A DNA stretch of 64,000 nucleotides, taken from Kitasatospora gansuensis. GTDB taxonomy: Bacteria > Actinomycetota > Actinomycetes > Streptomycetales > Streptomycetaceae. The position numbers and the translations under genes were made by a program. The stretch is from the NCBI RefSeq assembly GCF_014203705.1, contig NZ_JACHJR010000001.1:2294001-2358000 (forward strand). Direction: 5' to 3'. Below are positions 48,944-52,584 of this stretch, piece after piece. The notes beneath the pieces are model-generated. The model saw nothing but the letters and a program-made list of their open reading frames with translations. It did no database searches and was not told where the DNA came from. Every line of letters starts with the position of its first letter. Positions within the stretch are counted from its first letter, which is position 1.

Positions 48944-48954
48944 GGAAACTTTCC
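48944..48954. promoter_or_regulatory. Palindromic GGAAACTTTCC motif upstream of the chitinase gene
   Basis: GGAAACTTTCC is a perfect 11-bp palindrome with one central base. The extended form on the opposite strand is GGTTAGGAAAGTTTCCGATT. As I recall, similar GTTAGGAAAGTTTCC-type sequences occur upstream of Streptomyces chitosanase and other secreted hydrolase genes. It lies just upstream of a -35 element, so it may act as an operator. Confidence 0.55.
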
Positions 48955-49065: not shown

Positions 49066-50073
49066 ATGCCCAGTTCCGCTCCCCGTCGCACCGCCAGCGT
49101 GCTGCTGGCCGCCACCCTTGGCTCCACCGCCCTGCTGCTGGCCCCCACCGCTACCGCCAACTCCACGGCTGCCATCACCGCCGGTCCGGGCTCGATGGCC
49201 GCCGCCCCGTACGAGTACCTGGGCTGGGGCAACCCGCAGAAGCCCACCGACGTGATGGCGGCCACCGGGGTGAAGTGGTTCACGCTGGCGTTCATCCTCT
49301 CCGACGGCACCTGCAACCCGAAGTGGGACGGCAGCCGCCCGCTGACCGGCGGCTCCGACGAGGCGGCGATCAAGTCGATCCGGGCGGCGGGCGGGGACAT
49401 CGTCATCTCGGTCGGCGGCTGGAGCGGCAACAAGCTCGGCGAGAAGTGCGGCAGCGCCACCGCGCTGGCCGGCGCGTACCAGAAGGTGATCAACGCCTAC
49501 GGCCTGAAGGCACTGGACATCGACATCGAGGACACCGAGTTCGCCAACGCGACGGTCCGTCAGCGGGTGGTCGACGCACTGAAGATCGTCAAGACCAAGA
49601 ACCCCGGCATCGTCACCTACGTGACCATGGGCACCACGCCGAGCGGCCCGGACGCCACCGGCAAGGACCTGATCAAGCGGGGCGCGGCGGCCGGGCTGGC
49701 GAACGACGGCTGGATCATCATGCCGTTCGACTTCGGCGGGCACAGCGGCACGATGGGCCAGGCGACCGTCAGCGCCCTGCAGGGCCTGAAGGCGGCGGTG
49801 AAGAGCGCGTACGGCTACAGCGACGACGCTGCCTACCGCCACATCGGGGTCTCCTCGATGAACGGGATCACCGACGAGCCGGGCGAGACCGTCACCACCG
49901 GCGACTTCAAGACCATCCTGGCGTACGCCCAGCAGCACCACCTCGCCCGGTTCGCCTTCTGGTCCGTCAACCGCGACCGCCCCTGCGGCAGCGGCACGGA
50001 CGCCGACTCGTGCAGCGGCATCGCGCAGTCGCCGTACGCGTTCACCAAGATCGTCGTCCAGTACCAGGGCTGA
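49066..50073 (+). CDS. Secreted GH18 chitinase-like protein
   Basis: The product is 335 aa from ATG 49066. A signal peptide is evident: basic start (SAPRRTA), hydrophobic core, and likely cleavage near TATA (about 31). The GH18 catalytic strand reads LKALDIDIEDTEF, giving DxDxE at Asp151-Asp153-Glu155, where Glu155 is the proton donor. The first aspartate of the classical DGxDxDxE is not aligned. Other TIM-barrel strands include DIVISVGGWSG and GWIIMPFDFGG. It should hydrolyse chitin or chito-oligosaccharides outside the cell. No carbohydrate-binding module is fused. The next gene starts 11 bp after its stop. Confidence 0.88.
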   Translation: MPSSAPRRTASVLLAATLGSTALLLAPTATANSTAAITAGPGSMAAAPYEYLGWGNPQKPTDVMAATGVKWFTLAFILSDGTCNPKWDGSRPLTGGSDEAAIKSIRAAGGDIVISVGGWSGNKLGEKCGSATALAGAYQKVINAYGLKALDIDIEDTEFANATVRQRVVDALKIVKTKNPGIVTYVTMGTTPSGPDATGKDLIKRGAAAGLANDGWIIMPFDFGGHSGTMGQATVSALQGLKAAVKSAYGYSDDAAYRHIGVSSMNGITDEPGETVTTGDFKTILAYAQQHHLARFAFWSVNRDRPCGSGTDADSCSGIAQSPYAFTKIVVQYQG

Positions 50074-50084
50074 GGAGAGCAACC

Positions 50085-52511
50085 ATGCGTCCTCTCAAGG
50101 CAGTCGGCGGCCTGGCCGTCGTCGCGGCCCTGCTCCTCGGACTGGTCACCGGGCCGGCCGCCTCGGCCGCCCCGACCCGGTACGAGGCCGAGAACGCGGC
50201 CCGCTCGCTCGGCGTGGTGGAGGCCAACCACACCGGGTACTCGGGCACCGGATTCGTCAACGGCGACAACGTGGTGGGCAGTTGGGTCGAGTTCACGGTG
50301 AACGCCGCGTCGGCGGGCACCGCGGCGATCGCGATCCGGTACGCCAACGGCACCACACTGGACCGGCCGGGCGATCTGACCGTGAACGGCACGGTGGTCT
50401 CCGCCGCCCGTTCCTTCCCGTCCACCGGGACGTGGGACGACTGGGCCGTCTCCACCGTCACCGCCCCGGTCAACGCGGGGGCCAACAGGATCCGGCTGAC
50501 GTCGACCAGCGCGGCCGGCCTGCCCAACCTCGACGCCCTCGACCTCGACATCACCGCGCCGACCGCCGACTACCAGGCCGAGGACGCGGCGACCGGCCAG
50601 GCCGCGGTGGCCACCAACCACACCGGCTACACCGGCACCGGCTTCGTCGACTACACCAACATCGCGGGCAGCTACGTCGAGTTCACGGTCAGCGCCGGCA
50701 CGGCCGGCAGCGCCGCGCTCGCCTTCCGGTACGCCAACGCCGGGACGGCCGACCGGCCGATGGACATCGCGGTGAACGGCACCGTGGTCGCCGCCGGGGT
50801 CAGCTTCCCGCCCGGCGCCAACTGGGACACCTGGGCCACCAGGACCGTCAACGCCAACCTCACCGCCGGGACCAACCGGATCCGGGCCACCGCCACCACC
50901 GCCAACGGCGGCCCCAACCTGGACCGGCTCCAGGTCGGCACCGGCGCCGACACCAGCGCGCCCAGCAGGCCCGGGGCGCCCAGCTGTTCGGCCGTCGCGG
51001 CGAACAGCCTCACCCTGTCCTGGGGCGCCTCGACCGACAACGTCGGGGTCAGCGCCTACGACCTCTACGAGCACGGCAACAAGATCGGCGAGGCCCCCGG
51101 CGACAGCACCGCCACCCAGCTCACCGGCCTCACCCCGAACACCACCTACAACCTCACGGTGATCGCCCGGGACGCCTCCGGCAACGCCTCGGCGGCCAGC
51201 ACCCCGGTCGACTGCACCACTCTGGCCAGCAGCGACCCGCTGCCCAGCAGCCCCGGCACGCCGACCGTCTCGGGCGTCAACTCCACCGGCGCGACGCTGA
51301 GCTGGGCCGCCTCGACCGACGACAAGGGCGTCGTGGCGTACGAGATCCGCAGCGGCAACGCCGTGGTGAAGACCGTGACCGGTACGCCGCCGGGCACATC
51401 GACGGCCGTGACCGGCCTGGCCTGTGACGCCCCGTTCACCCTCACCGTGGTGGCCCAGGACACCGCGGGCGGCTACTCGGCGCCGTCCGCTCCGGTGTCG
51501 TTCACCACCGGCGCCTGCTCCGCCGACGGCGGGGTGCCCGGCTCGCCCACCGCGCTCTCCTCCGGCTGGACCGTCCCCTGGGGCGTGTACTGGATGCCGG
51601 ACGGCAAGACCGCGCTGGTGACCGAGCGGGACAGCTTCAAGGTCTTCAGGACCAGCACCGCCGGGGCCCGCACCCAGGTCGGCACCGTCCCCAACGCCGT
51701 CACCACCGACGGCGAGGGCGGACTGCTCGGGGTCGCCGTCGACCCCAACTGGTCCACCAACCACCGGGTCTACTTCATGCACACCGCCGCCGAGGGCAAC
51801 CGGATCGTCCGGATGACCTACGACGGCACCGCGCTCAGCGGCTACACCGTGCTGCTCCAGGGCATCCAGAAGAACCGCTACCACAACGGCGGGCGGCTGG
51901 CGTTCGGTCCCGACGGCTTCCTGTACGCCACCACCGGGGACGCCCAGACCCAGGCCAACGCCCAGAACAAGAACTCGCTGAACGGCAAGATCCTGCGGCT
52001 CACCACCGACGGCAAGCCGGCCCCCGGCAACCCGTTCGGCAACTACGTCTACAGCTACGGGCACCGCAACCCGCAGGGGCTGGCCTTCGACCGCAACGGG
52101 CGGCTCTGGGAGGCGGAGTTCGGCGACTCCAAGTTCGACGAGCTCAACCTGATCAAGCCCGGCGCCAACTACGGCTGGCCGACCTGCGAAGGCGCCTGCA
52201 GCACCGCGGGGATGACCAATCCGAAGGCCAGCTGGGCGGTCAACGTCGCCTCCCCCAGCGGGATCGCGATCGTCCGCAACGTGGTCTACATGGCGGCGCT
52301 GCGCGGCGAACGGATGTGGCGGATCCCGATCAACGGCGACACCGAGACCGTCGGTACGCCGACCTCCTACTACGTCGGCAGCTACGGCCGGCTCCGCACG
52401 GTCAGCAAGGTGCCCGGCGCGGACCAGCTCTGGCTGACCACCACCAACGCCGACAACAAGGGCGGCGCGGCCGACGGGGCGGACAAGCTGTTCCGGATCA
52501 CCATCGGGTAA
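50085..52511 (+). CDS. Secreted CBM35/FN3/PQQ-type sugar dehydrogenase (AA12-like)
   Basis: The product is 808 aa from ATG 50085, with AGGAG 7 nt upstream and overlapping the chitinase stop region. A signal peptide ends near ASA (about 28). Then come two CBM35-like modules (about 30-155, 160-287; RYEAENAARS and YQAEDAATGQ), two fibronectin type III domains (about 290-385, 392-480) and a C-terminal glucose/sorbosone dehydrogenase-type beta-propeller (about 490-808). The propeller has WGVYWMPDGKTALVTER, GEGGLLGVAVDP and HRNPQGLAFDRNGRLWEAE. Such propellers use PQQ to oxidise sugars and are classed as AA12. Co-transcription with the chitinase suggests an oxidative partner in chitin degradation. 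Confidence 0.85.
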   Translation: MRPLKAVGGLAVVAALLLGLVTGPAASAAPTRYEAENAARSLGVVEANHTGYSGTGFVNGDNVVGSWVEFTVNAASAGTAAIAIRYANGTTLDRPGDLTVNGTVVSAARSFPSTGTWDDWAVSTVTAPVNAGANRIRLTSTSAAGLPNLDALDLDITAPTADYQAEDAATGQAAVATNHTGYTGTGFVDYTNIAGSYVEFTVSAGTAGSAALAFRYANAGTADRPMDIAVNGTVVAAGVSFPPGANWDTWATRTVNANLTAGTNRIRATATTANGGPNLDRLQVGTGADTSAPSRPGAPSCSAVAANSLTLSWGASTDNVGVSAYDLYEHGNKIGEAPGDSTATQLTGLTPNTTYNLTVIARDASGNASAASTPVDCTTLASSDPLPSSPGTPTVSGVNSTGATLSWAASTDDKGVVAYEIRSGNAVVKTVTGTPPGTSTAVTGLACDAPFTLTVVAQDTAGGYSAPSAPVSFTTGACSADGGVPGSPTALSSGWTVPWGVYWMPDGKTALVTERDSFKVFRTSTAGARTQVGTVPNAVTTDGEGGLLGVAVDPNWSTNHRVYFMHTAAEGNRIVRMTYDGTALSGYTVLLQGIQKNRYHNGGRLAFGPDGFLYATTGDAQTQANAQNKNSLNGKILRLTTDGKPAPGNPFGNYVYSYGHRNPQGLAFDRNGRLWEAEFGDSKFDELNLIKPGANYGWPTCEGACSTAGMTNPKASWAVNVASPSGIAIVRNVVYMAALRGERMWRIPINGDTETVGTPTSYYVGSYGRLRTVSKVPGADQLWLTTTNADNKGGAADGADKLFRITIG

Positions 52512-52552: not shown

Positions 52553-52584
52553 CTGTGGCGACCCCCATCCGGGGGTCGCCACAG
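52553..52584 (+). terminator. Terminator after the chitinase-dehydrogenase operon
   Basis: CTGTGGCGACCCCC pairs perfectly with GGGGGTCGCCACAG (14 bp) around a 4-nt loop, 41 bp after the dehydrogenase stop. It also lies just beyond the 3' end of the convergent hypothetical gene. Confidence 0.9.

Follow-up and report, generated by a model that had tools for sequence, protein, structure and literature searches.

The closest described counterpart of the system analyzed here is the CsnR chitosan regulon of Streptomyces and Kitasatospora (csnA, csnREFGHK), in which the ROK-family repressor CsnR recognizes a box with the 13-mer consensus AGGAAANTTTCCT; binding to this box is affected by chitosan oligomers, most of all by the glucosamine (GlcN) dimer (GlcN)2 (PMC6097792; PMC3048496; PMC4856308). 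Related enzymes include the pyrroloquinoline quinone (PQQ)-dependent aldose sugar dehydrogenases (Streptomyces coelicolor 3DAS, Escherichia coli YliI, and one from Pyrobaculum), the secreted fungal PQQ sugar dehydrogenases of auxiliary activity family 12 (AA12; CcPDH and TrAA12), and CsxA, an exo-β-D-glucosaminidase of Amycolatopsis that acts on chitosan and bears a carbohydrate-binding module (CBM) of family 35. We analyzed a 64,000-nucleotide stretch of the Kitasatospora gansuensis genome (contig NZ_JACHJR010000001.1, positions 2,294,001 to 2,358,000; hereafter the window) in which a glycoside hydrolase family 18 (GH18) gene is directly followed by a gene for a CBM35-bearing sugar dehydrogenase of the PQQ type. 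Our reading, to which we give a probability of about 0.65, is that this pair belongs to the CsnR regulon as a unit and forms its PQQ-dependent oxidative arm.

The CsnR box and its sites in the K. gansuensis genome

The original prediction had pointed to a palindrome ahead of the pair that resembled hydrolase operators, and this proved to be a CsnR box. The core GGAAACTTTCC is exact, and the extended site, CGGAAACTTTCCT, is one outer base off the 13-mer consensus. It is the sole site in the window at one mismatch or fewer, with 0.16 matches expected. Genome-wide, GGAAASTTTCC occurs at five places and the reversed-pattern control at none. Besides the pair, the boxes stand 30 bp ahead of a GH46 chitosanase gene (PF01374, 349.5 bits), 76 bp ahead of the ROK gene (csnR) that heads the csn operon, 174 bp ahead of a gene for an F5/8-type (CBM) module and metallophosphatase, and, between two genes, 222 bp from pqqB and 186 bp from an amino-acid permease gene. 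The ROK gene is followed by genes for a solute-binding protein, two permease-like proteins, a GH4 enzyme, and a BadF-type kinase, which is the published csnREFGHK layout. Operator, regulator operon, and GH46 gene are common to this genome and the described regulon, whereas in the genomes analyzed here the box is also found on GH18, PQQ dehydrogenase, pqq, lyase, and permease genes. The box suggests chitosan, not chitin, as the inducer. Separately, in two genomes (L228:9945-11336 and L292:3405) a gene for a secreted protein with an F5/8-type module and a metallophosphatase has a CsnR box ahead of it.

The PqqE of this genome scored 494 bits (cut-off 381) and its PqqD was above its cut-off, while PqqB, PqqC, and PqqE were confirmed with curated models in the matching operon of Kitasatospora sp. 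Root107. A short PqqA-like frame with an E-x3-Y motif lies ahead of pqqB, giving an operon pqqABCDE. In Root107, pqqB, pqqC, pqqE, a CBM35-lyase gene, and a CBM35-GH18 gene form a same-strand run with a CsnR box before pqqB (L164:7863-13375; G034:C11). We found no report of PQQ genes in the CsnR regulon in the open literature searched, a scope that excludes the J Bacteriol 2011 CsnR paper and supplements. A list of 15 CsnR-box genes of Streptosporangium roseum, chitinases included, is cited in a review and may already contain such genes.

The gene pair and its products

The coordinates of the pair are collected in Table 1. The two open reading frames lie as close together as originally predicted, and the short gap makes a common promoter likely, although a promoter scan of the pair returned no sigma-70-type match. 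The proposed common terminator fared in a similar way: a hairpin follows the pair, with a GC-rich stem of 14 bp (z -4.3), but it lacks a T-run and was not among the matches of the terminator scan. Read by eye, the N-termini of both products look like signal peptides, in line with the predicted secretion.

Table 1. Features of the gene pair and its flanks, in window coordinates
Feature	Position	Strand	Remarks
CsnR box GGAAACTTTCC	48944-48954		122 bp upstream of the GH18 ATG; identical to the published operator core
GH18 gene (P0001)	49066-50073	+	ATG 49066, stop end 50073; predicted secreted, PF-ChiA/exochitinase type; below Pfam cut-off
Spacer GH18/dehydrogenase	50074-50084	+	11 bp, GAGGAG-like ribosome-binding site; read from sequence
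Dehydrogenase gene (P0002)	50085-52511	+	ATG 50085, stop end 52511; predicted secreted CBM35-CBM35-FN3-FN3-PQQ sugar dehydrogenase
CBM35-A	50175-50549	+	Residues 31-155; Pfam CBM_35/CBM_6
CBM35-B	50556-50939	+	About residues 158-285; near the CsxA CBM35 (2vzp, 133.9 bits)
FN3 x2	50967-51506	+	First 295-376 (Pfam); second about 388-474, read from sequence
GSDH propeller	51573-52454	+	Residues 497-790; PQQ site His600, Arg661, Asn662, Arg769, Arg771
Hairpin, possible terminator	52553-52584

P0001 reached only 16.4 bits against the Pfam GH18 model, under the cut-off of 29.6, but matched the solved GH18 enzymes 9buf ('Exochitinase 1') and 2dsk with 158.6 and 101.6 bits. Its catalytic glutamate (E155) is kept in LDxDIE, which is the D-x-D-x-E pattern of the family. 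Judged by its relation to solved structures, P0001 is thus a GH18 enzyme, despite the Pfam score.

In P0002, Pfam recognized two CBM35/CBM6-type stretches (PF16990, 55.4 bits; PF03422, 63.9 bits), which differ in type, two FN3 stretches, and the GSDH domain PF07995 at 231 bits (cut-off 25). The catalytic histidine and the first arginine/asparagine of the PQQ site align between the propeller and the soluble glucose dehydrogenase of Acinetobacter. All 40 of the 40 sequences compared have the His, Arg, Asn, Arg, and Arg of the site, with the C-terminal sites mapped through a weak alignment, and two further positions vary among them (D in 21 and E in 19 at the Asp site; R in 27, K in 11, and V in 2 at the Lys377 site). 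The propeller matched 3das with 309.6 bits; a published table gives this entry as the aldose sugar dehydrogenase of S. coelicolor. By homology the propeller belongs with the PQQ aldose sugar dehydrogenases, and together with the pqq genes of the genome this bears out the PQQ-type propeller of the original prediction. It has its family and PQQ-site residues in common with the S. coelicolor, E. coli, and Pyrobaculum enzymes; unlike them, P0002 has two CBM35 and two FN3 modules in front and a CsnR box upstream. No box lies near a second PF07995-type copy in this genome (C1:7680154).

The proposed membership in AA12 did not hold up: no AA12 enzyme was among 13 matches in the Protein Data Bank (PDB) at E ≤ 0.001, a search made in the PDB only and not with an AA12 profile. 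That family is treated as fungal in the literature, and about 20% identity of CcSDH to bacterial enzymes is reported. CcPDH, like P0002, bears a CBM; the AA12 enzymes combine CBM1 with AA8, whereas P0002 has CBM35 and FN3.

The nearest solved relative of CBM35-B is the module of CsxA, which is a single CBM35 on a GH2 hydrolase, in contrast to two on an oxidase here. CBM35s from dehydrogenases, GH8, and GH18 enzymes interleave in one tree (with rough supports), which suggests that the modules have been exchanged between the three kinds of enzyme and have a common ligand. In one member of the Streptosporangiaceae, the double CBM35s of GH18 and GH8 are near-identical, which looks like a recent copy from one of the two genes into the other (L078:9114-12909). 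Alignment of the window with G060, a Kitasatospora genome, falls into two blocks with a junction at 50552. An origin of the double CBM35 through deletion of a GH8 gene was left undecided and is not adopted here, since double-CBM35 dehydrogenases also occur in Streptosporangiaceae (where the tree bootstrap is not settled).

Boxes and neighboring genes in Kitasatospora and other genera

We used a set of 70 Kitasatospora genomes and picked 20 of them by gene content: seven with a window-type dehydrogenase (at least 78% identity), two with the cluster GH8, eight with pqqE without the dehydrogenase, and three others. Because these 20 were chosen, their figures are not genus-wide rates. They hold 63 exact boxes, in 19 of the 20 genomes, against three for the reversed control (one in G028, two in G037), and 58 of the 63 precede csnR, GH46, or module genes. 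The nearest gene was csnR in 17 cases, GH46 in 16, GH18 in 12 (one together with a permease), the lyase in 6, pqqB/permease, GH8/permease, and phosphatase in 2 each, the dehydrogenase in 1, and another gene in 5. Five CsnR-type palindromes away from module genes (L259:3687, L271:3397, L273:3399, L284:2266, and L300:3459; one intragenic) may be further targets or chance.

Of 29 loci with an orthologue of the GH18 gene, 24 have a box on the upstream side of that gene and none has one on the downstream side; one of the five box-less loci is a contig edge and another is the Root107 copy in the pqq locus. All seven window-type dehydrogenases stand in box-headed gene strings, reached through GH18 in the window, GH18-GH8 in G060, and the lyase in G025, G028, G030, and G064, or directly in G034, whereas none of 14 other PF07995 matches is near a box, the nearest being 53 kb away (coordinates by eye in both cases). 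Compared with the window, Root107 is 90.7% identical over the upstream 1.1 kb, including box and leader, and 92.5% over the dehydrogenase, and GH18 is absent at that place; its GH18 (93.0%) sits behind pqqE and the CBM35-lyase gene in the pqq locus, a locus with a box of its own. The location of the GH18 gene therefore differs between two near relatives, both locations being box-controlled. Across the genus, pqqE accompanies the dehydrogenase in 5 of 7 genomes versus 14 of 63 without it (p 0.014, modest), and the lyase does so in 5 of 7 versus 7 of 63 (p 0.001), kinship being ignored in both tests. The GH8 co-occurrence (5/7, p 3.5e-5) is not relied on because it mixes two GH8 types: four of the five genomes sharing GH8 and dehydrogenase have only a 62-64% GH8 relative.

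Beyond the genus, a pattern-based, non-exhaustive search gave 39 loci with close propeller relatives, in which neighbors were counted within about 8 kb at identities of at least 45%. These were GH8 in 16 loci (one on the opposite strand), a PF14099 lyase in 15, GH18 in 14 (11 intact on the same strand, two fragments, one distant on the opposite strand), an aldo/keto reductase in 12, GH29-like in 10, GH88 in 9, pqqE in 6, GH28 in 4, and GH27 and GH75 in 3 each. In longer stretches, given for 38 of the 39 loci, 37 genomes were searched: 17 of them have pqqE, and in 9 (L079, L081, L083, L087, L090, L099, L100, L103, and L109) it lies no more than 10 kb from the dehydrogenase. The order in S. violascens (L203) is pqqB, pqqC, pqqDE, GH88, lyase, GH28, GH29-like, GH18, GH8, dehydrogenase. 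It differs in Streptosporangiaceae (dehydrogenase, GH18, GH8; L078, L092), so the link between the genes has outlived rearrangement. Near the dehydrogenase, eight of the 39 loci have an exact box (L072-L076, L078, L101, L103) and two a box with one mismatch (L107, L108); over all stretches scanned there were 23 matches, of which two pairs are the same place, against one for the control. In L097, L098, and L206 the box is ahead of a GH75 gene (PF07335 83.7 bits in L206).

The PF14099 lyase scored 26.9 in S. violascens, just under the cut-off of 29.9, and 34.6, above it, in S. lanatus. No PDB relative was found with phmmer; the predicted fold (pLDDT 81.5) is of the type of polysaccharide lyase families PL7/PL13/PL14/PL20. 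Among the 50 structure matches listed, glucuronan lyase 2zzj had the best query TM-score (0.62) but came 15th by E-value, behind PL7 alginate lyases, and we therefore assign no substrate. The cluster GH8 is nearest to 5xd0, followed by the chitosanases 1v5c/7cju. In L077:4696-6945 the cluster GH18 is fused to a GH27-type α-galactosidase in one protein, and in the Streptomyces clusters an aldo/keto reductase gene is divergent from pqq (L203:13246-14082, similar in L204-L208).

As a coupled module of hydrolase and oxidase, the original prediction was right in outline, the two being tied by the operator and, in other genera, by the cluster; strict adjacency is a local matter, seen in one of the 70 genomes (the window's own), with GH8 in between in G060. 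The refuting finding named in the original prediction, a pair found apart in most relatives, applies inside the genus to adjacency, but neither to regulation nor to the wider cluster, with its intact same-strand GH18 in 11 of 39 loci. We dropped the view that the pair is for this reason meaningless because the operator and cluster evidence persists where the genes separate.

The proposed oxidative arm and its alternatives

In the absence of chitosan, CsnR would occupy the box and keep the pair off, and chitosan oligosaccharides would release it along with the GH46 gene, the csn transporter operon, and the PQQ-biosynthesis operon; the box is common to all of these, and from it we infer a common response. 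GH18 and chitosanases would cut the N-acetylglucosamine (GlcNAc)/GlcN polymer, the CBM35s would hold the dehydrogenase at the polymer or wall, and the dehydrogenase, presumably charged with PQQ from genes under the same switch, would oxidize reducing ends or freed aldoses to sugar acids. This suggests a combined oxidative and hydrolytic attack of such bacteria on fungal walls rich in chitosan. Because the cluster in other genera adds a uronate-type lyase, GH88, GH28, GH29-like, GH27, and GH8, its natural target, judged from composition only, may be a chitosan-plus-glucuronan wall as in Mucoromycota. Mucorales walls are described as chitin/chitosan and glucuronans with fucose, mannose, and galactose (PMC6433966). 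Against such walls, others have built a fusion of glucuronan lyase and chitinase (PMC7601620). The cluster lyase, GH88, GH29-like, GH27, GH18, and GH8 would fit the Mucorales wall, which is a match of composition and not proof; the oxidative arm is perhaps aimed at chitosan/glucuronan walls of this zygomycete type. In its fullest form we regard the idea as tentative and, as a whole, unlikely: an extracellular second, oxidative actinobacterial chitosan pathway in which CsnR would control PQQ synthesis and a wall-anchored dehydrogenase turning GlcN and fucose or other aldoses into sugar acids, a permease would import D-glucosaminate, and the full cluster (uronate lyase, GH88, GH29-like, GH27, GH18, and GH8) would be a dedicated dismantler of Mucoromycota chitosan-glucuronan walls. 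Fungal AA12 enzymes are reported to oxidize L-fucose.

Several observations weigh against an oxidative arm of the CsnR regulon. Its support comes from sequence and gene position. The dehydrogenase is present in only 7 of the 70 Kitasatospora genomes, and since GH18 orthologues and boxes are commoner, it would be an optional part. No pqqE was found in G028 and G060, both of which have the dehydrogenase, so PQQ would there be scavenged or the enzyme idle. In K. gansuensis itself the GH8, a 64% relative, is not at a box, and no close PF14099 lyase was found in the genome. Most Streptomyces loci of the 39-locus set have no box near the dehydrogenase, and none was found ahead of pqq in the L203-L208 clusters at up to two mismatches, for which reason a CsnR-like operator before the full Streptomyces pqq clusters was rejected. 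Fungal relatives were screened on GlcN and GlcNAc, but the reported kinetics are for other sugars.

Compatible with CsnR control, yet rather unlikely in our view, is an attachment of the enzyme by its CBM35s to the wall of the producer itself, which would place the oxidation at the bacterial surface and not on fungal polymer. The CBM35 of CsxA is said to bind a polysaccharide on the surface of the bacterium that makes it, whereas the enzyme has chitosan as its substrate; the likeness to CsxA is one of overall similarity, however, and the two modules here are of different type. A special case of the favored reading, in which the dehydrogenase turns GlcN into D-glucosaminate, an α-amino acid, for import by the box-flanked permease, we also hold to be unlikely. 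The PF13520 permease gene is always divergent and has its box in common with pqqB (G000, G034), GH18 (G060), or GH8 (G014, G016), and some bacteria are reported to oxidize glucosamine to glucosaminic acid. Against this, the substrates of both proteins are surmised, glucosaminate uptake being a guess, and a search of the 39 dehydrogenase loci at identities of at least 45% gave no match to the permease. The divergent arrangement across the box is seen at L165:12480-13871, L166:6737-8134, L169:10321-11784, L170:10996-12459, and L164:13821-15212.

That the uronate part of the cluster is directed at plant pectin or a bacterial glycan, the chitosan enzymes belonging to a mixed scavenging set, would suit GH28 and GH88 and a lyase fold that alginate and heparin lyases also have; we doubt it, given the chitosanases GH8 and GH75, the GH18, and the CsnR boxes in the same clusters. 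More doubtful still is that the enzyme readies the polymer and does not feed the cell. Chitosan is insoluble at neutral pH, and aldonic acids would lower the pH and dissolve it; dehydrogenases of this type form acids and this one appears co-regulated with a chitosanase, but there is no specific genomic sign of such a role. We rank last, as very improbable, the original idea that the dehydrogenase passes electrons to AA10 lytic polysaccharide monooxygenases (LPMOs). The genome has two AA10 genes, and CcPDH drives fungal LPMOs, an activation that reportedly depended on AA8, with free PQQ also able to mediate. P0002, by contrast, has no AA8 cytochrome domain in its Pfam scan, neither AA10 gene is at any of the five boxes, and the suggested co-occurrence check gave no AA10 match near the dehydrogenase in the 39 loci at the same identity threshold.

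If the pair is indeed an oxidative arm of the CsnR regulon, PQQ synthesis and an extracellular sugar oxidase would be joined to an actinobacterial chitosan response that the review describes as hydrolysis and oligosaccharide uptake. A possible enzyme set against zygomycete walls is also indicated. Existing csnR mutants offer a way to test what PQQ enzymes do in the secretions of streptomycetes, now that a candidate inducer and a small, box-defined set of genes have been named.

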